Positions 4,396 through 45,355 of a stretch of 53,808 nucleotides of DNA are shown here, one piece after another (position 1 is the first letter of the stretch; the number at the start of each line of letters is the position of its first letter). The stretch spans positions 1 to 53,808 of the IMG/VR virus record IMGVR_UViG_3300027522_000002. One strand, given 5' to 3'. Both the position numbers and the translations under genes were made by a program. This DNA comes from a virus. A model generated the notes under the pieces. The model was not told the DNA's origin, ran no database searches, and saw only the letters and a list, made by a program, of their open reading frames with translations.

Positions 4396-4866
4396 TTACC
4401 ACTTACCTTGATTTGCGCCAATAATGTACACAACAACAGCTAAGATGCCGAGCCCAGAAAAAGCCGCAGAAAGCCCAACTGCCCAGTTGATGCATTTGTC
4501 TATAAACTCCTGCTTGGCGTATACCAACTCCCGTTGTTCTTTACGTTGCTGGGCCTCGATCCTGACAATTTCTTCCCACGCTTTTGGCCCGTAATTCCAA
4601 CTGATAAACGCACGAATCTCCTCTCTCATTTCGTCTAGTTTTTTCTTTTGGGTCCATATCTCCAATGCGCTCGACTGAGTGTCAGTGAACATCTTATACA
4701 TTGGGGGTTTTTTAGCTTTGTCTTCTAAAAAGTTTAAATCACTGACAGCCTTACTCCACGACGATATGGATTTTGACATGTCACTTAGCTCTCGGCCAAG
4801 TTGAACGCTTTTCTTTATTCCGTTATAAGCAGCAGTTGCAGCCGCCATGGCAGTAAATGGATCCAT
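4396..4866 (-). CDS. conserved phage protein with C-terminal membrane anchor
   Basis: A 156-residue protein beginning MDPFTAMAAATAAYNGIKK. Residues 1-120 are helical and charged, and residues 128-150 form one hydrophobic membrane segment. Proteins with this start and a C-terminal anchor are widespread in marine T7-like and T4-like phages, but their function is unknown. It stands between the portal gene and the lysis genes, so it may belong to the lysis block or be a minor virion component. Confidence 0.75.
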   Translation of the reverse strand: MDPFTAMAAATAAYNGIKKSVQLGRELSDMSKSISSWSKAVSDLNFLEDKAKKPPMYKMFTDTQSSALEIWTQKKKLDEMREEIRAFISWNYGPKAWEEIVRIEAQQRKEQRELVYAKQEFIDKCINWAVGLSAAFSGLGILAVVVYIIGANQGKW

Positions 4867-4881
4867 AATTCAAACCCTAAC

Positions 4882-7362
4882 TTAGCCTCGCTGCAATTTC
4901 TGTCGCTGGATGTCGATGCGCTCACGATTAACCTCGTTCCGATTATCCGCAATTTCTTCTTGGCTTTCGATTCTCGCAGAGTCAGTGGTTGCACGTTGCT
5001 GCATTTTCTGGAGCTCAACCAACATCTGACCCTGATCTTCTTCCGTCTTACGAAGTAGATCTTTTTCTTTAATTTCCAACTCTTGCATACGAATCTGCAC
5101 CAGAGGATCGTCCATAGGGCTGTTGCCTTGAGGCATAAGCTGCGGCATCACCTCAGTCATTAACTGCTCCATCTGCATGGATATCAGTTTTTCCATCTGG
5201 GCTGGGTCTTGCATATCCTGCTGAACTTGCGCCATTTGTGCTTGAGCAGCCTGTGGATCAAGCTGTCCCGCGCTTACAGAGGCTTGCGCCTGCTTCATGA
5301 TCTCGGAAATCTCTGTCTCAACCATCATACGGGCCTTCTGAGATAGGTGCTCCATGACATGAGCATAAAACGTACCCATGACTGTCGGAGACGTCGACAC
5401 CAAGGGAGTCTTCATAAACATCAAGTGAATGCGGATGTGGGCATCGTGATCCTGATCTGGAAATGTTGTCAGAATCTCGCCCATTAACGCACGGGCGTTC
5501 TCGATAGCTGGATCCAAAGGCTTGGGTTGAGGAGGAGGGGGCAACACCTCATCAATATTCTGGACCTCAAGTGCTTGGTACATACGTTTGTACGCAGCGT
5601 GGAGGTTATGCATTTCCGGATTAGACTGCGCCAATTGCAACTGCGTTTGTGCCAAGGTTACGCGCTGGGCCATCGAGAATATGTTGGGGTCACTGACCGG
5701 AACAACATCAACACGATTGTCAAAGTCCGAAGCCATGATCTGACGTTCGCCGCCTTGAACATCGTAAGGGTATTCTTGGGGCAGATTGTCTCTGAATATC
5801 CTAGCTAACACTCGGAACTCTTGCTTCTGAGCATAGTGCAGACGTTTGTGTATAGCGGACATAACTTTCATGCCGCGCTCTAGGAGAGCCACAGTGGTCC
5901 CTACAGGGGCTTGAGAGTTAGCATCGCCTGTCTGTTGGTCAGCAAGCTGTACGAAGCGTCTACCGCCCTCTATGAGCGTCCCAAGTAGGTTTGCGAGAGT
6001 TCCCGAAGGCTCTTTGTACGGAAGCGGGATAATTGCATCCCGTATGTTTCCACCAGGAGCGTCAATATCTCGCCATTCTCCGGGCTGTAAGGGCTCATCG
6101 TCATTCCGAACCCTTACACCCCGAGCCTTGAAGCCAGCGGGGAGGTTCGCCAGCGTTCCGGCATCGATCAACTGGCGAAGAATACTTGTAGCCGCACGAC
6201 CCAATCCACCAATCATGTGAATTAAACCAAAGCCATAGAATCCCAAACCAGGCATAAACTTGTAGTGAACAAAGTACTGCTGCTTCTTGGCAAGAGGACT
6301 GTCTTCTTCAAAGTTTCTGCGAATAGACAGAATGTGTCCCGAGCCTTCATCAACAGAAACAATATACGGGAGAGCAATTCCAGTAGGCTCTCCGTCCGGA
6401 GACATATCCTCGAAACCCTCGATATCTAAATCGACGTGCATTTCTAAAATAGTGTATATATCGTCCATGTATGTTTTGGACGTGCCTTGAATCTCGTCAA
6501 CTTTTTGACGGACCTCATCAGCATCGCCCTCAAAGGTGCTTAACTCTACATCACGGTACATCCCCGCAATCTGCAACTTGCGTATGGCATTAGCATCCAT
6601 TTTAAGAACGTGGGTAACCCTAGAAGCGGTAGCCAAGTCCGATGCTGCGTAGGGTACAACCAAGTCTTGCGCAGGAATAAACTGAGCGACAGCCCGTTGT
6701 TTAGCCTCATCGTAGTAAACTTTTTTGAAACATGATCCCGAAAGTGGTAAATAAAACAGAAGCTGATCCATATCCGGATCAAACTCTTCCATGACTTCCA
6801 TGATCTGGTAGTTCATGTAGTTCTTAACTCGAGTAGCCTGCTCTTCTCTCTCGGCATCCTGTAGACCAAGTACCTGTGTCTTGACAGGGCCACCGGACGG
6901 TAGGAGCTCCTTGTAAGCCTGTGCTTGGAATTGGGTAACACTCTCCGCTATAAGCGGGTGAGTGACGCCTGACGCGCCTGCAAACGGCTGTGTGCGCTCC
7001 ATGTACTTAATGCCAAGTTGATCCAAGCCTTTAGTGTAAGCTTCCTCCCACTCAGACCTAGACTCCATGTCATCTTCGAAAGACTGACGAAGCTCAGAAG
7101 AAAGCTCTCCTAAGTAACCATCCTCGAGATGATCCGCCAAGTTAACGGAGTGTTCTAGGGGCTCTTCCATGACTTCCCCGTTAAGAGAGTCCAGAAGAGA
7201 TTGGATAACTGCGCCACCTTGGCCGTCTTCTATAACCTCGGCCCCGCCTTCAAACGCCTCGGGCTCCATTACATCTATATTAACAGACGCCTCGCTGGGC
7301 ATCATGTCTTCCATTGTAATTCCAGCATCTACTGGGCCCATTGGGCGAGGTGGCAAAGCCAT
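4882..7362 (-). CDS. portal protein
   Basis: An 826-residue protein. The N-terminal 80 residues are acidic. A core with PFAGASGVTHPLIAESVTQ (about 125) and a long Gln/Met-rich helical C-terminus (about 690-826) fits the large portals of podoviruses. The portal forms the ring at the capsid vertex through which DNA is packed and ejected and to which the terminase docks. It follows the large terminase directly (TAATG overlap at 7362), the classic terL-portal order. Confidence 0.85.
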   Translation of the reverse strand: MALPPRPMGPVDAGITMEDMMPSEASVNIDVMEPEAFEGGAEVIEDGQGGAVIQSLLDSLNGEVMEEPLEHSVNLADHLEDGYLGELSSELRQSFEDDMESRSEWEEAYTKGLDQLGIKYMERTQPFAGASGVTHPLIAESVTQFQAQAYKELLPSGGPVKTQVLGLQDAEREEQATRVKNYMNYQIMEVMEEFDPDMDQLLFYLPLSGSCFKKVYYDEAKQRAVAQFIPAQDLVVPYAASDLATASRVTHVLKMDANAIRKLQIAGMYRDVELSTFEGDADEVRQKVDEIQGTSKTYMDDIYTILEMHVDLDIEGFEDMSPDGEPTGIALPYIVSVDEGSGHILSIRRNFEEDSPLAKKQQYFVHYKFMPGLGFYGFGLIHMIGGLGRAATSILRQLIDAGTLANLPAGFKARGVRVRNDDEPLQPGEWRDIDAPGGNIRDAIIPLPYKEPSGTLANLLGTLIEGGRRFVQLADQQTGDANSQAPVGTTVALLERGMKVMSAIHKRLHYAQKQEFRVLARIFRDNLPQEYPYDVQGGERQIMASDFDNRVDVVPVSDPNIFSMAQRVTLAQTQLQLAQSNPEMHNLHAAYKRMYQALEVQNIDEVLPPPPQPKPLDPAIENARALMGEILTTFPDQDHDAHIRIHLMFMKTPLVSTSPTVMGTFYAHVMEHLSQKARMMVETEISEIMKQAQASVSAGQLDPQAAQAQMAQVQQDMQDPAQMEKLISMQMEQLMTEVMPQLMPQGNSPMDDPLVQIRMQELEIKEKDLLRKTEEDQGQMLVELQKMQQRATTDSARIESQEEIADNRNEVNRERIDIQRQKLQRG

Positions 7363-15386: not shown

Positions 15387-15414
15387 TTGTGCTCCGGTCA
15401 CAGTCTGCTATGAT
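15387..15414 (+). promoter_or_regulatory. early promoter, TTGTGC - 16 bp - TATGAT
   Basis: TTGTGC at 15387-15392 and TATGAT at 15409-15414 are 16 bp apart. The same arrangement with matching flanks (CTTGTGC, CCG, TGCTAT, then AACTTTCAAYTAA) recurs at 16352-16379. This makes a repeated phage early promoter likely. It reads into the gene at 15452. Confidence 0.65.
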
Positions 15415-15451: not shown

Positions 15452-15754
15452 ATGCCAAGAACTACATTCGGAAAGACCCGCCCACAGGATAACCCTTACG
15501 CGACCTATACGAACGCCCAAGGTTGGACTTGGAAAGTTTTAAAAACCTATAAGCATTCGAGCTCGGAGGATAATTATTCTCGGTGGTTTGTGGCGGCGAC
15601 ATCGCCCATGATGCATGGCGGGGCATACGAGCTCGGAGATACCTACGCCCATGATATCAAGAACTATGGCACTCTGATCCAAGGCGACCCGCTCTGGATC
15701 GAGCAATACCATAAAGCTTTTGACCTCGACGACCACAACAAAAACCAAGCGTGA
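15452..15754 (+). CDS. early protein of unknown function
   Basis: A 100-residue, Trp/Tyr/His-rich soluble protein starting MPRTTFGKTRPQDNPYATYTN. It has the block WTWKVLKTYKH and the end AFDLDDHNKNQA. No known family was recognised. It has its own promoter (15387-15414) and leader element (TTTCAATTAAACGGAGG, 15430-15446). It is followed by two hairpins, so it looks like a self-contained transcription unit. Confidence 0.75.
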   Translation: MPRTTFGKTRPQDNPYATYTNAQGWTWKVLKTYKHSSSEDNYSRWFVAATSPMMHGGAYELGDTYAHDIKNYGTLIQGDPLWIEQYHKAFDLDDHNKNQA

Positions 15755-15759
15755 CAGCA

Positions 15760-15828
15760 AGGGCCCCCGCGTGGGGCCCTAAGACCCCCGCCCATGCGCT
15801 CCAATATATTGGGTTTCCGCGCATGGGC
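15760..15828 (+). terminator. two consecutive hairpins after the 15.45 kb gene
   Basis: The first hairpin has 8-bp arms AGGGCCCC and GGGGCCCT (15760-15780). The second has 10-bp arms GCCCATGCGC and GCGCATGGGC (15790-15799 and 15819-15828) around a 19-base loop. Neither has a T-run. They precede the first GGCCGCAG cluster. Confidence 0.55.
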
Positions 15829-15837
15829 TTTCCGCTT

Positions 15838-15910
15838 GGCCGCAGGCCGCAGTGCAACGGGGCCGCAGGCCGCAGAGACGGGGCCGCAGGGCCGCGCAGC
15901 AAGGCCGCAG
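15838..15910 (+). repeat. GGCCGCAG repeat cluster A (six exact copies)
   Basis: Exact copies of GGCCGCAG start at 15838, 15845, 15861, 15868, 15882 and 15903, and one altered copy lies near 15890. The cluster lies between the tandem hairpins and the promoter of the next gene, in non-coding sequence. The same octamer makes clusters at 16296-16327 and 17207-17325. Confidence 0.9.
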
Positions 15911-15933
15911 GGATCTGACTTGTGTTTAACTTG

Positions 15934-15962
15934 TTGACCTGGACCAAGTCTTTTGATATTCT
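15934..15962 (+). promoter_or_regulatory. early promoter, TTGACC - 17 bp - TATTCT
   Basis: TTGACC at 15934-15939 and TATTCT at 15957-15962 with a 17-bp gap read into the gene at 16003. The spacer contains TGGACC, also seen in the promoters at 14551 and 18461, so a shared operator half-site is possible. Confidence 0.6.
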
Positions 15963-16002
15963 GATCTTGCCAATCAAGGCATTCAACTAGAGGAAACGAA
16001 CC

Positions 16003-16206
16003 ATGCGTAAATCTTATGTCAACGAAACATCGATGACGGTCCAGCTTGTGATCGAGCTCGATGAGGTCCAAGGTCTGATCGAGATCATAACCAAGATCGA
16101 GGATCCGGACCACCGAGCCAAAGGTATATTGACCAGCCTCAAGACCGTCAAACGAGAGGCGGCGATCGAGGCGCACCGAACGTTCGAACACATGATGAAC
16201 GAGTAA
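16003..16206 (+). CDS. small early protein of unknown function
   Basis: A 67-residue protein starting MRKSYVNETSMTVQLVIELDE. It is beta-strand-like at first, then helical. It has its own promoter, the leader element ATTCAACTAGAGGA (15981-15994), and a following hairpin. The DNA carries five GATC sites within 16050-16105. No family was recognised. Confidence 0.7.
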   Translation: MRKSYVNETSMTVQLVIELDEVQGLIEIITKIEDPDHRAKGILTSLKTVKREAAIEAHRTFEHMMNE

Positions 16207-16211
16207 GAACG

Positions 16212-16229
16212 GGGGCCCTGCGGGGCCCC
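16212..16229 (+). terminator. GC-rich hairpin after the 16.0 kb gene
   Basis: A 7-bp stem (GGGGCCC with GGGCCCC) has a 4-base loop and lies 6 bases after the stop codon. No T-run follows. Confidence 0.5.
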
Positions 16230-16295
16230 TTACTACATCCGAGCCCCCGCGCTGCTGCTGCGCTGGCGATCGATACAATATAAAGAATAAGACGG

Positions 16296-16327
16296 GGCCG
16301 CAGGGCCGCAGAGTAACAAGGCCGCAG
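16296..16327 (+). repeat. GGCCGCAG repeat cluster B (three exact copies)
   Basis: Exact copies start at 16296, 16304 and 16320, in the non-coding gap just before the promoter at 16352. This is the same relation to a promoter as in cluster A. Confidence 0.9.
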
Positions 16328-16351
16328 AGATTTATCTTTTGAAAAAAAGAC

Positions 16352-16379
16352 TTGTGCGCCGCTTGTGTCCTGCTATTAT
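16352..16379 (+). promoter_or_regulatory. early promoter, TTGTGC - 16 bp - TATTAT
   Basis: TTGTGC at 16352-16357 and TATTAT at 16374-16379 with a 16-bp gap form a near copy of the promoter at 15387. It is followed by the leader element TTTCAACTAAGAGGA (16392-16406) and the gene at 16416. Confidence 0.7.
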
Positions 16380-16415
16380 GTAGTAGTTAACTTTCAACTA
16401 AGAGGATTTATACTA

Positions 16416-17111
16416 ATGAAAAGCGGAGTCATATACAAAGGGCCAAGCCTATTGGATGGCAAGCCTATAATCGCGATCGCAACATGGTCCAATCGCAACA
16501 CAAAAACGGGCGCGGTGGTCCAGACTTACATCTTGTGCGATGATGGAATTAATCCATTGGAAGCAAGCAAGACGGGCGCGGATGTTAGCATTTGCGGCGA
16601 CTGTCCTATGCGCGGAGAAGTAACAACGGATCCGGTGCGCAAACAAGCAAAGGCGCGGCGCTGCTACGTTAACCTAGGGCAAGGCGTCCTGATCGTTTGG
16701 AAAGCAAATCAGCGCGGAGTGTATCCAATGGCAAACACAAACGAGGCGCGGCGGACACTAGGGCGCGGCCGCTTTGTAAGGGTTGGCACGTATGGGGATC
16801 CAAGCGCGGTGCCTGATTTTGTTTGGACGCAATTACTTGCCGAGGCGGACACGTTCACAGCCTACACACATTCCAGCGGATGGAATCCAGAAATTGCCAT
16901 GCAAAGCGCGGACAACAAGGCGCAAGCAATCGCCCATTGGAAAGCAGGACGGCGCACCTTTCGAGTCATCGCGGACCTTGGGGAATTAGACAAGGTAAAC
17001 GAGGCCCTGTGTCCTGCGTCAAAAGAGGCCGGACGCCGCGTCCAGTGTACCGCCTGCAAATTATGCAAGGGATCCAGCAAGGGGAAATCTATCGCAATTG
17101 TAGAGCACTAG
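16416..17111 (+). CDS. conserved cysteine-rich phage protein (DUF7227-like)
   Basis: A 231-residue protein. The start at 16416 follows AAGAGGA in the shared leader. Cysteine blocks include SICGDCPMR (near 58), RRCYVNLGQG (near 82) and CPASKEAG followed by CTACKLCKG at the end. Such proteins are common in phages of marine and other proteobacteria and have been grouped as DUF7227; assignment is by memory of the pattern. The Cys sets suggest zinc or iron-sulfur binding. The DNA is unusual, with nine GCGCGG hexamers, unlike the replication genes. A full terminator follows. Confidence 0.8.
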   Translation: MKSGVIYKGPSLLDGKPIIAIATWSNRNTKTGAVVQTYILCDDGINPLEASKTGADVSICGDCPMRGEVTTDPVRKQAKARRCYVNLGQGVLIVWKANQRGVYPMANTNEARRTLGRGRFVRVGTYGDPSAVPDFVWTQLLAEADTFTAYTHSSGWNPEIAMQSADNKAQAIAHWKAGRRTFRVIADLGELDKVNEALCPASKEAGRRVQCTACKLCKGSSKGKSIAIVEH

Positions 17112-17117
17112 CCGCAA

Positions 17118-17150
17118 GGGCTCGGGGGAAACCTCGAGCCCTTTTCTTTT
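17118..17150 (+). terminator. intrinsic terminator with GAAA tetraloop
   Basis: A 10-bp stem (GGGCTCGGGG with CCTCGAGCCC, one G-U pair) closes on a GAAA loop and is followed by TTTTCTTTTT. It lies 7 bases after the DUF7227-like gene and ends early module I. Confidence 0.9.
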
Positions 17151-17206
17151 TATCGGGGGAAACCCGCCCAGAATCGAAGCCTCCAGGGCAGCGAACCAAT
17201 AGTCGA

Positions 17207-17345
17207 GGCCGCAGACCCGCAGGGCAACGGGGCCGCAGGGCAACGGGGCCGCAGGGCCGCAGAGCTATAAACTAGACCGCAGAGCGCAGGGCCGCAGAGT
17301 ATCGGGCCAAGATGCGAGGCCGCAGACCCAAGAACAAAGCCGCAG
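17207..17345 (+). repeat. GGCCGCAG repeat cluster C (six exact copies plus variants)
   Basis: Exact copies start at 17207, 17231, 17247, 17255, 17290 and 17318. Variants (GACCGCAG, AGCCGCAG, ACCCGCAG) lie between and after them. The right half runs into the 3' end of the minus-strand nuclease gene and encodes its last residues. Confidence 0.9.
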
Positions 17346-17694
17346 AGCTCTCGAACCTCTCCCCTTGGGTGCCGGACAGCCCATTCTCGACAAGCTGACC
17401 GCTCTGATTCCCGTCAAATAAAAGTAGGTCACGCTCCGAGGACCTCTTTACTAAGATAAAATTTGCGCCACCTCTAGCCCAATATACTGTGTTCCAAGCG
17501 ACTTGATGAGCCGAGAGATTTACCCCGTTGCCTTTGGATACCTTGAGTTCGACCCAGCAAGCGAAGCCGTCCCAGATGAGGTGAACGTCAGGAACGCCAC
17601 CCCCGTGCTTGTTTTCAATCCTTGTCGCTTGGCATTTCGGGGGTAGATTCGATCTCAATGTGTTCCAAAAGTTGGCCTCTGGTCCCTTGCTCAT
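17272..17694 (-). CDS. PD-(D/E)XK nuclease (VRR-NUC/Holliday resolvase-like)
   Basis: A 140-residue protein. With the start MSKGPEANFW at 17694 the catalytic core is clear: GGGVPDVHL with Asp36 and WVELKV with Glu49 and Lys51, followed by SAHQVAWN and a strand NFILVKR. This is the PD-(D/E)XK fold of small phage endonucleases. Possible roles are resolving branched DNA before packaging or degrading host DNA. It overlaps the upstream terS by about 80 bases. Its C-terminal tail (RILARYSAALRSAV) is read from the GGCCGCAG repeat region. Confidence 0.8.
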   Translation of the reverse strand: MSKGPEANFWNTLRSNLPPKCQATRIENKHGGGVPDVHLIWDGFACWVELKVSKGNGVNLSAHQVAWNTVYWARGGANFILVKRSSERDLLLFDGNQSGQLVENGLSGTQGERFESSAALFLGLRPRILARYSAALRSAV

Positions 17695-18241
17695 GTGGCG
17701 TGATATCCTTTGCTGTTCCCTCGATCTCAAAAGCTTGAGGATATTTCTTTTGTAGGTCTGCCAAACGTCCGACAATTTCATCCCGCGAAAGCTGATCGAT
17801 GCTGTTGACCTGTTCTCTTCTGTCCACAGTCAGACCTCCCAATGCAGACCGAATCTTCTCCGCATTGATGGCTGCTGAAAACTGGCCGTTCTCTTCTGCG
17901 CCGAGGGATAGTTTATGCAACCGTTCAAGCTGTCCGATTGTGGTGACAGCATACCTGCGCTCCCGCTCTTCCCGCATCTCTTGGATGTACTCAAGGACAT
18001 GAGGATAGTCTCGACCATTCAGCAAAAGAGATGCATGTTTGGCCGCAGTGGTTTCAGCAAAGCCAGCCTTACGAGCGGCCTCTGCATTGGAGTAGATGCC
18101 TTCCACGATAAAACGAGAGAAGGTCTTTTGTCTGTTGGTCAGGACCCTTTCGGCCCCGTCTTGCGTAGTTTCTTCTATCGACATATGTTCGCCCCATTGT
18201 GCTCTACCAACAAGATAAACTATAGACATGAAATTGTCCAT
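17615..18241 (-). CDS. terS: terminase small subunit
   Basis: Up to 208 residues. LTNRQKTFSRFIVEG at about 34-48, then NAEAARKAGFAETTAAKHASLLL, is the helix-turn-helix start of the Terminase_2-type small subunit, which recognises the packaging site. A long helix (about 80-100) and an acidic C-terminus follow. Two starts are possible: 18241 (AGGA close before) and 18184 (MSIEETTQD); both keep the domain. The gene is about 9 kb from terL and lies among early plus-strand genes, with only the nuclease on its strand. Confidence 0.8.
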   Translation of the reverse strand: MDNFMSIVYLVGRAQWGEHMSIEETTQDGAERVLTNRQKTFSRFIVEGIYSNAEAARKAGFAETTAAKHASLLLNGRDYPHVLEYIQEMREERERRYAVTTIGQLERLHKLSLGAEENGQFSAAINAEKIRSALGGLTVDRREQVNSIDQLSRDEIVGRLADLQKKYPQAFEIEGTAKDITPHEQGTRGQLLEHIEIESTPEMPSDKD

Positions 18242-18524
18242 CTTTCCTATATAGGGACTTTTTCCCAGATAAACGTACTACCGTCCTCAGAGTGTACTAT
18301 TTTATGGGCTACTTAGAAGGTTGTAAACAAACAAGTTTGTTACTTGATAGTACGTTTAGTACGTTTATTACATCATATTTGAATGGATAAAAACTTTTTT
18401 ACTTTTTTTCTGGAGAATATGCCTATAAGGGTACTCGGCGTACTTTCCCCAAAATATTTCTTGACCCATGGACCGAGGTCCTATAGCTTGTGGTCTATCA
18501 ACAATTCAATTATGAGGTTTAATT
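18242..18524. other. divergent regulatory region with operator-like repeats
   Basis: These 283 bases carry no convincing gene. TAGTACGTTTA occurs at 18348-18358 and again, overlapping, at 18357-18367. Its inverse TAAACGTACTA lies at 18270-18280. A palindrome AACAAAC-AA-GTTTGTT lies at 18326-18341. A plus-strand promoter is at 18461-18489. The pattern suggests repressor binding between terS and the SymE-like operon. Confidence 0.7.
18461..18489 (+). promoter_or_regulatory. promoter of early module II, TTGACC - 17 bp - TAGCTT
   Basis: TTGACC at 18461-18466 and TAGCTT at 18484-18489 have a 17-bp gap containing the palindrome GGACCGAGGTCC. The leader ATTCAATTATGAGG (18504-18517) then supplies the ribosome site of the gene at 18525, as in the other early cassettes. 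Confidence 0.6.
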
Positions 18525-19560: not shown

Positions 19561-20205
19561 GTGGAAGAAGATTTCAACATCAAGGTATCGGTCAGGAACG
19601 GCAGGTTGTTGAGGGCGATCAGGGACAGGTATGATTCGGTTGCTGAGTTATCGCGTCAATTAGTCAGAGGTAAGTCGCAGGTAAATGCTCTCGTTACTAT
19701 GAAGTTGAAACCATTTAACCACAAGGGTTGGACAGATTTAGCTTTGGATGTTGCGGCGATGGTTGGCAAGGAGCCCGAAGACTTATGGCCTGATCATCTT
19801 CGTGAGTTGCAGTTAGCCAAATCCACATCTGAAATGGAAGTTGGTTTGGACAGCGTCAAGCGATTAATTCAAGACGGGACTACCGAGAAGACTTTATCTC
19901 AGATCAGTGCGGTCTCAACGTTATCTGAAGCACTGACGCCGAGAGAAAGAAGGTGCTTGGCAATGCGTTTTGCATTGGGGCATTCTTTAGAAGAGACTGC
20001 CAGAGTCTTGGGAGTTACGAGGGAGAGGGCGCGTCAGATAGAAGCCAAGGCTATCCGAAGGATGAAACGTGCAGCTACGGTACACGGTTACCGCAAGGAA
20101 GACGTTTGGGCCAACGTCTTTGACCCAGAACATCAGATGAAAATGACAACAAAGATAAGCAGTGAGCGTATAACCAACAAAGGTTTAGACCTTTTCAACG
20201 ATTAG
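19561..20205 (+). CDS. sigma70 region 4-like transcription regulator with N-terminal HTH
   Basis: A 214-residue protein starting with GTG at 19561 after GGGAGG. Residues 125-170 match sigma70 region 4 closely: LTPRERRCLAMRF, then SLEETARVLGVTRERARQIE, then AKAIRRMKR. That part would contact the -35 element. Residues 10-80 look like a separate helical DNA-binding domain. No region 2 is visible, so it cannot melt DNA like a full sigma factor. It is a candidate for redirecting host polymerase to late promoters. The pairing of the two domains is unusual. Confidence 0.8.
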   Translation: MEEDFNIKVSVRNGRLLRAIRDRYDSVAELSRQLVRGKSQVNALVTMKLKPFNHKGWTDLALDVAAMVGKEPEDLWPDHLRELQLAKSTSEMEVGLDSVKRLIQDGTTEKTLSQISAVSTLSEALTPRERRCLAMRFALGHSLEETARVLGVTRERARQIEAKAIRRMKRAATVHGYRKEDVWANVFDPEHQMKMTTKISSERITNKGLDLFND

Positions 20206-37082: not shown

Positions 37083-38129
<1,047 letters not shown>

Positions 38130-43996: not shown

Positions 43997-45355
43997 CTAC
44001 GCATCATTGGCTGCATCTGTCGTGAAGAATAGTTTGATGCCTAGCAAGCGAGACACACCAGTAAACGTATCGCCACCCGCATTTGCATCCCTAAATATTT
44101 GAAAGTACGATTGCGTATCAACCGCTGCATTTGTAAGGGTAACTTCTCCGCTTAATGGAGAAACCTGCTGATCTTCTACCGTGCCTATCCCTGCGTCTGT
44201 AACTGTTACGGCTGTACCAAACGCAACATCTATAGTGGCACCATCGGCAACCGAAACTCCCTGCAAGCCCCAGATGCAATCCCCAGTATTTGTTGTGCTA
44301 GGCGTCCAAAAAACTTGAAATTTTATTACTCCTTCATTCCAACTTTTTGGAAATCCGATTGAGAACTGAGCAAAGTCATCCGCCGCTGCCGCAAAATCTA
44401 AGACTTTCATGTCAGGCCGTAACGCGGTTGTTTCCACTTGAGTAAGGTCTGAGCATGGGTTTGTTGTGCTGGGATACATCGCAGCGGCAGGAACCCAAAT
44501 TGTTTCCAAGCCTGCGACTTTAGCCGCAACACCACCAACCGTAAGTCCGTCTGTTTCTAACGTTCCATCAATATCAGCGTCTCCTGATATGTCTAAACTT
44601 GCAGCGATAATTTCACCACTAGCGTTTATCGCGCCGTTAATGTCGATTGTAGTAGCCGCAATTTGAATTTCAGTGTCTGCTACAATATCAAGCTGCCCGT
44701 CAGTAGATGAGTTAATATAAATAGCGGCGTCACGAAACTTTATCTTTTTGTCGGTTCCAACAAGAGAATCTGCGTTACTAGCAAATCCACCATTGAAGAC
44801 CGTAGCCGCTGTAGTTGTCAGAACCCCCGTAACGCCAAGAGTTTCACCGATTGTGACCAATCCAGTAACTCCTAGATCATCGCCAACAACCAGATCGTCA
44901 CTAACTACCAAGTCATCAACAGTGGTTGTTCCAGCTAAATTAACAGCCGTAAGAAGATCGTGAACCACGCCACCTGACCCGAGGCCGTCTGTCGCAATAA
45001 CTTTAGTCTGATTCGCAGGAATGATTACATTAGCTCCGCTGCCGCAAGTAAAAGTCAAAGCCGCAGCCGTTGCGTTATACATGAACCAAGTTTTGGAACT
45101 GGTGTTGGGCAAAAGAGTGACCGTGCAAGCCTGACCGCCGCCCGTGAGCTTCAGCCCAAGGCATCTATCTGCGTCCAGCGCACCGTCTGCAATCGTAATG
45201 TTGTCCGTTGAGGCGTTCGCAATAGCTCTGGTTCCCCAAGCAACGGCCTGCCCAATTATTTCTAGGTTAGTGTTAGTCGTATCGCCCCAAGAACCAGATT
45301 GTTCTCCAGAACCGATTTCTTCTAACCGTAAATTGTTTACATATGTGCTTGCCAT
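43997..45355 (-). CDS. tail fibre protein
   Basis: A 452-residue protein. The start MASTYVNNLRLEEIGSGEQS then GSWGDTTNTNLEIIG is typical of phage fibres attaching to the particle. The middle has repeated beta elements (DDLVVSDDLVVGDDLGVTG). The C-terminal domain at about 290-452 is beta-rich, fitting a receptor-binding head. It is followed by the Gly-rich tail protein. Confidence 0.8.
   Translation of the reverse strand: MASTYVNNLRLEEIGSGEQSGSWGDTTNTNLEIIGQAVAWGTRAIANASTDNITIADGALDADRCLGLKLTGGGQACTVTLLPNTSSKTWFMYNATAAALTFTCGSGANVIIPANQTKVIATDGLGSGGVVHDLLTAVNLAGTTTVDDLVVSDDLVVGDDLGVTGLVTIGETLGVTGVLTTTAATVFNGGFASNADSLVGTDKKIKFRDAAIYINSSTDGQLDIVADTEIQIAATTIDINGAINASGEIIAASLDISGDADIDGTLETDGLTVGGVAAKVAGLETIWVPAAAMYPSTTNPCSDLTQVETTALRPDMKVLDFAAAADDFAQFSIGFPKSWNEGVIKFQVFWTPSTTNTGDCIWGLQGVSVADGATIDVAFGTAVTVTDAGIGTVEDQQVSPLSGEVTLTNAAVDTQSYFQIFRDANAGGDTFTGVSRLLGIKLFFTTDAANDA

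Follow-up and report, generated by a model that had tools for sequence, protein, structure and literature searches.

The question raised by this locus is why one octamer, GGCCGCAG, should be crowded into three clusters within a short part of a phage genome. The window, i.e. the whole stretch of DNA that was analyzed, is a 53.8-kb viral record carrying portal, large terminase, capsid, and ejection genes on its minus strand and a block of primase, UvrD-like helicase, and polymerase A genes on its plus strand. Its kin are the Pelagibacter phages HTVC027P and HTVC023P together with phage 023Pt_psg01 (68-71% for the capsid and about 48-53% for the polymerase), and HTVC023P-type and related phages have been described among the most abundant in the ocean (PMC9599517, PMC10149686). 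The octamer occurs in 18 exact copies in the window, all on the plus strand, and 15 of these fall inside 15838-17325 (six at 15838-15910, three at 16296-16327, and six at 17207-17325). Our recount agrees with the initial annotation, which had reported 15 exact copies in three clusters where one or two would be expected: 100 dinucleotide shuffles gave a chance level of 1.29 copies per window with a maximum of 5, and the best 8-mer in simulated sequence reached only 3-4 copies per 1.5 kb, versus 15 here. The arrays are lengthened by degenerate units (CCCGCAG, GACCGCAG, AGCGCAG, and GGCAACGG), which carry the third cluster to about 17345-17347. When both strands of the rest of the window were searched for the CGCA(A/G) core, no comparable cluster was found, the sole other site with four cores in 120 bp being at 44993. 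Other short repeats at 37881 and 43181 (TGGGC every 6 bp and ACCGCC) lie within late structural ORFs and are presumably coding repeats. The arrays themselves occupy a small region of early-type cassettes, with late genes on one side and the terminase-small gene and its neighbor on the other. Its features are as follows.

15761-15779 and 15790-15828: terminator-like hairpins before array A, from the sequence
15838-15912, plus strand: array A, six exact GGCCGCAG copies and degenerate units, preceding the predicted promoter that would serve the 67-aa gene at 16003-16206; conserved in L087 and L088
15934-15962, plus strand: predicted sigma-70-like promoter after array A, TTGACC-N17-TATTCT, by sequence match
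16003-16206, plus strand: F3-family gene, 67 aa, function unknown, predicted helical hairpin
16211-16229, plus strand: terminator-like hairpin of the F3 gene
16296-16329, plus strand: array B, three exact GGCCGCAG copies, with a -35 box 23 bp further downstream
16352-16379, plus strand: predicted sigma-70-like promoter after array B, TTGTGC-N16-TATTAT
16416-17111, plus strand: phrog_2554 gene, 231 aa, GP88/DUF7227-like, with arrays B and C on either side
17118-17151, plus strand: terminator-like hairpin and T-run after phrog_2554
17207-17347, plus strand: array C, six exact GGCCGCAG copies and degenerate units, the longest array, with no promoter after it
17272-17781, minus strand: convergent ORF, 169 aa, phrog_2165 (annotated DNA helicase)
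17615-18241, minus strand: terminase small subunit-like gene, whose orientation relative to the arrays differs between branches

All three clusters had been placed in noncoding gaps, each between a hairpin or terminator and the next transcription unit. This description fits arrays A and B, each of which is followed by a predicted promoter, but not array C, which lies between the phrog_2554 terminator and the 3' end of the convergent gene and which, from 17272 onward, is inside the 3' end of the minus-strand ORF 17272-17781. From its context in the HTVC027P branch and the annotation style of CRP-901, and without Pfam confirmation, this ORF may be called VRR-NUC-like. A promoter-like TTGTGC-N16-TATGAT at 15387-15414, before the gene at 15452-15754, is nearly identical to the promoter of array B and is free of any array, indicating that the arrays are not needed for promoter function.

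Misassembly is excluded as the source of the clusters, since L087, a contig assembled from a different metagenome, is identical to the window and the arrays are also present in a relative with 98% identity in the flanked protein (L088). In the latter, array C is shorter by exactly 24 bp, which corresponds to three units. Insertions or deletions of whole repeats between isolates had been set beforehand as a test, and this is such a case. The arrays are neither an assembly artifact nor a repeat private to one genome.

To follow the arrays in the near branch, i.e. that of the window, loci were gathered mainly through the phrog_2554 or terminase-small protein rather than through the array, with a minority coming from an octamer scan. 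A flank was scored as array-bearing if it held at least three CGCA(A/G) in 400 bp, against a background of about 0.96 per 400 nt per strand. On the strand of the gene, phrog_2554 qualified upstream at 105 of the 110 loci with enough sequence on that side and downstream at 108 of 118, versus a single locus in each set on the opposite strand; the contigs counted are kin, so these are not independent loci. Near-branch units such as GGCGCAG, GGCGCAA, and AGCCGCAG follow one another in steps of 7 or 8 bp and share the consensus RRNCGCARR, and the CGCA(A/G) arrays are kept even in genomes with AT-rich flanks. Gene-order strings place them mainly before the F3 family, before phrog_2554, and after phrog_2554, amid variable surrounding gene content. 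In the long relatives G018 and G021, CGCA(A/G) clusters are confined to the phrog_2554 array region. One locus (L134) has an array of >20 units. The genome G016 lacks phrog_2554 and retains only two CCGCAG units beside the convergent gene (L471, 6240-6400); the adjoining CTCG-rich stretch is a possible degenerate array of the opposite strand. No arrays were seen in CRP-118/403, whose gene is 57% identical, or in the stretches of HTVC023P and CRP-901 that were scanned. An exact-octamer scan of polymerase-related contigs likewise found no paired octamer, because the relatives use variant units and many of the contigs stop short of the locus; a generic repeat scan recovered arrays in relatives where the exact-octamer scan had not. 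Scans for octamer triples in viral and cellular collections returned many GC-rich sequences from unrelated organisms, among which only those carrying the terminase-small/phrog_2554 locus proved informative.

A second version of the arrays exists in the HTVC027P branch. In HTVC027P, 7-bp arrays occur before gp34, before gp33, and between gp33 and the convergent gene, which are the same positions as in the window, and a whole-genome scan detected just one further, looser run, within a late gene. A scan by the array pattern alone yielded 120 viral stretches, about 99 of which carry an HTVC027P-type terminase-small gene and 90 a gp33 homolog; among the matches listed, the arrays are on the strand of the gp33 homolog. 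Each unit in this branch consists of a CAAGC core and two letters that are almost random (CAAGCNN); the units are spaced at strictly 7 bp, in runs of mostly 3-9. By Pfam, gp33 is a GP88 protein, and the phrog_2554 protein of the window matches GP88 and DUF7227 models by fold. Thus, the arrays of both branches probably flank the same kind of gene, and fold matches, a short cysteine motif, and weak Pfam matches make common ancestry of phrog_2554 and gp33 likely but not firm. Between the branches, the terminase-small gene changes its orientation with respect to the arrays, whereas the flanked and convergent genes keep theirs. Phage 023Pt_psg01 (L230) has looser AGCG/AGCA and CAAGC runs at the same two positions (5415-5530 and about 4600-4670), possibly a third version of the array. 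In HTVC027P, the annotated ORF of gp32 runs through array C (L229, 5032-5280), such that its C-terminal half is repeat-encoded and may not be a real protein end.

With the units of both branches at hand, we could consider whether the arrays act through RNA or DNA secondary structure such as a G-quadruplex. G-runs such as GGGGCCGCAGGGCAACGGGGCCGCAGGG do occur in the window arrays. However, it is the would-be loop (CGCA) that is conserved and not the G-runs, as L098 has AGCCGCAGAGCCGCAG and CAAGCNN contains no G-run at all, and arrays A and B sit upstream of promoters. The G-quadruplex was dropped for this conservation of loops over G-runs, and we attach next to no probability to such structures.

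In the HTVC027P branch, arrays are fused directly to predicted promoters. Among 386 distinct CAAGCNN arrays of at least three units, 68 run straight into a TTGACA hexamer, as compared to an expectation of 0.19. A TATAAT-like hexamer follows at a spacer of 17 in 55 of the 68, and in 67 there is an ORF downstream, with its start 27-59 bp away in all but one. The ORFs behind these fused arrays comprise 36 of GP88 type, 12 of gp34 type, and other small genes for the remainder. In the window branch, the last unit lies a median of 79 bp ahead of the start codon, and the intervening sequence contains an AT-rich gap and a TTG-type -35. The arrays thus form parts of promoters, all of which are predicted from the sequence.

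Direct repeats near early genes could also form an iteron-type replication origin, in which an initiator bound to the repeats melts adjacent AT-rich DNA, arrays B and C bracket the origin, and the promoter overlap reflects autoregulation or chance. Consistent with this, array B of the window branch lies beside an AT-rich stretch, the layout is array-gene-array, the window has a local GC-skew minimum near 14-18 kb, and SPP1 offers a precedent in gp38, which acts at oriL and oriR (PMC6316719). In HTVC027P, however, the skew tracks gene direction with no turning point at the arrays, and the arrays of its branch abut the -35 boxes of several different small genes without any separate AT-rich stretch. 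The replication genes are also located elsewhere, and we regard an origin as unlikely. The proximity of array C to the terminase-small gene (about 0.3-1 kb in both branches) could point to a pac packaging site, where a ring of terminase small subunits would sit on the repeats. Identical subunits arranged in a ring would be well placed to contact co-oriented repeats, and the SPP1 pac site has both direct repeats and promoter overlap (PMC4737164, PMC6316719). Yet two of the three arrays are tied to the promoters of other genes, the orientation of the terminase-small gene with respect to the arrays differs between branches rather than staying fixed, and the DNA-binding domain of SF6 shows little sequence preference for pac repeats (PMC4737164). 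Moreover, G016 has nearly no array despite a terminase small subunit that is 77% identical. A packaging site is accordingly improbable in our estimate.

Two further explanations concern how the repeats came to be there. They could be neutral tandem repeats created by replication slippage or spreading, and unit numbers do vary, with exactly three units missing from array C of L088 and >20 units in L134. However, copying from a neighbor would make adjacent NN pairs agree too often, and neighboring copies in CAAGCNN arrays are less alike than shuffling would predict. Identities between adjacent NN pairs numbered 40 among unique arrays, versus 67.6 in within-array shuffles, none of 5000 of which was as low; once related arrays were collapsed, the count was 37 versus 53.7, which 2 of 5000 shuffles matched and which is about the rate expected from overall composition. 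This test covers the CAAGCNN branch, whose arrays show no sign of slippage and in which perfect repeats are probably avoided. As the NN letters differ between neighboring units, slippage probably did not make the CAAGCNN arrays. Strand, position, and core are additionally held across large divergence, which leaves neutral repeats a very slim chance. Spreading repeats, as proposed in the initial annotation, are likewise disfavored, because the arrays stay at two or three fixed places and neighbors in the HTVC027P branch lack shared variable letters. The same annotation had suggested recombination sites for the exchange of early cassettes. Gene content near the arrays does vary, with a unit of F3 plus array being present or absent, and the sequence of L088 departs from that of the window shortly before array A. 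Recombination sites would leave the fixed promoter distance and the -35 fusion unexplained, though, and many gained genes lie beside the arrays rather than between them. The differing free letters of neighboring units also lower the homology between copies. Because genes come and go, often to one side, while the arrays keep their promoter or 3'-end position, recombination sites are not needed to explain the data, and we give them little credence.

Of the explanations first offered, protein-binding arrays are the best. Their support is indirect: >100 relatives preserve the same strand, position, and core, and arrays of the HTVC027P branch merge directly into -35 boxes. We consider it fairly probable that the arrays are a multi-site operator, to which a DNA-binding protein docks every 7-8 bp at early promoters to time the genes behind them, with array C in an auxiliary role. 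A row of one short site, repeated in one direction every 7-8 bp, would constitute a cis-acting multi-site element, and arrays A and B, positioned just upstream of sigma-70-type early promoters (or fused to them in the HTVC027P branch), could thereby determine when those genes are expressed. Each unit would take up one protomer or dimer of a sequence-specific protein that loads cooperatively along the row, and the loaded protein would then repress or activate the adjacent promoter. Co-oriented 5-bp cores, stepped by 7 bp and abutting a -35 box, are suited to the requirements of such loading. We lean slightly toward repression, given the near-consensus promoters of the distant branch. The promoter-less array C might be an auxiliary site for the same protein, serving as a loop partner of array B, a titration site, or a boundary separating the convergent genes. 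We infer both that a protein binds the arrays and that those of the window work like those of HTVC027P.

Published RNA-seq of HTVC027P infection is consistent with such an operator. In this dataset, gp33 and gp34 are grouped in a temporal cluster of their own, apart from the early, middle, and late ones, with high expression 6-9 h after infection (PMC12753301). They are also precisely the two HTVC027P genes that follow promoter-linked arrays, a correlation seen in one isolate. The main text of that study mentions no promoter, motif, or repeat, and it describes HTVC027P as having no RNA polymerase of its own, depending on that of the host, and carrying early genes of unknown function (PMC12753301). 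The same study assigned a Pdase_C33_assoc domain to gp34, an assignment that we did not reproduce, as we detected this domain only weakly and in gp33.

The protein that would occupy the arrays could be encoded by the phage, and a host protein is possible as well. A Pfam search of the small ORFs scanned found no ribbon-helix-helix domain. F3 was rejected as a ribbon-helix-helix regulator, since its protein is modeled as a helical hairpin and matched nothing in the PDB significantly; its nearest fold matches, which are not significant, are to the helical hairpin of the anti-Thoeris protein Tad1. The phrog_2554 protein has no PDB relative by sequence or by fold and matches only GP88/DUF7227 phage models, and it was therefore dropped as a known enzyme or initiator. 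Further downstream, a protein with a sigma-factor region-4-like helix-turn-helix (phrog_351, 19561-20205) is a possible phage transcription factor and is rare, occurring at 5 loci among the fetched relatives. In addition, a perfect 12-bp inverted repeat, ATAAACGTACTA / TAGTACGTTTAT, with an extra GTACGTTTAT, lies at 18269-18368, where the terminase-small gene and the rightward early block diverge, and looks like the operator of a different regulator.

If true, a conserved promoter-fused operator array would provide a concrete handle on gene timing in these phages, offer a cause for an expression class that was published without one, and make co-regulated genes predictable directly from metagenomic sequence, while the array DNA would serve as bait for the missing regulator. 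We found no report of such arrays in the literature searched, which mostly excludes subscription journals, and within it a promoter-fused repeat code common to a marine phage group, with an expression match in one isolate, is new. More tentatively, the arrays may belong to an uncharacterized system of abundant marine phages, in which a phage or host protein forms a continuous filament or wrap on rows of 7-8-bp units and gives array-bearing early genes their own time slot, the promoter rows being joined to a larger promoter-less row across the gene. Its core would have been swapped between lineages (CAAGC vs CGCARG) and its layout kept.

Several known systems invite comparison. The operators of MetJ are contiguous 8-bp met boxes bound by a ribbon-helix-helix protein, and they share with the phage arrays the use of contiguous short units; unlike these arrays, they are near-palindromic, host-encoded, and usually 2-5 units long. 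The stoperators of L5-type mycobacteriophages are asymmetric single 13-bp sites spread over the genome. Like the phage arrays, they are asymmetric, lie in short intergenic gaps, and are oriented with transcription, but they are single and genome-wide, whereas the phage arrays are contiguous rows at few fixed places. In contrast to iteron origins, the phage repeats are promoter-fused, and occur in several places, and their composition gives no indication of origin activity. SPP1 oriL and oriR are similar in being direct repeats in a phage early region, where in SPP1 they are bound by a phage protein (PMC6316719). The closest parallel comes from omega, the ParB of pSM19035, whose sites are rows of asymmetric 7-bp units with a 5-bp core that overlap the promoters of a few genes (PMC9499535). 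Omega binds cooperatively with one dimer per unit, requires at least four contiguous units for full activity, and has 7-10 units per site (PMC9499535). We found no omega or ParA homolog, and the phage appears lytic. The omega core, WATCACW, does not match the CAAGCNN or RRNCGCARR units, and omega sites are found in both orientations, whereas the phage arrays are found in only one. The period is strictly 7 bp in the HTVC027P branch, with its runs of mostly 3-9 units, and a mix of 7 and 8 bp in the window branch. Promoter overlap is common to both systems, with 68 phage arrays fused to the TTGACA boxes of predicted promoters. Thus, while we do not claim membership in the omega system, the phage arrays appear to resemble its design, and omega heptads, as contiguous asymmetric units with a 5-bp core, are the nearest documented one.
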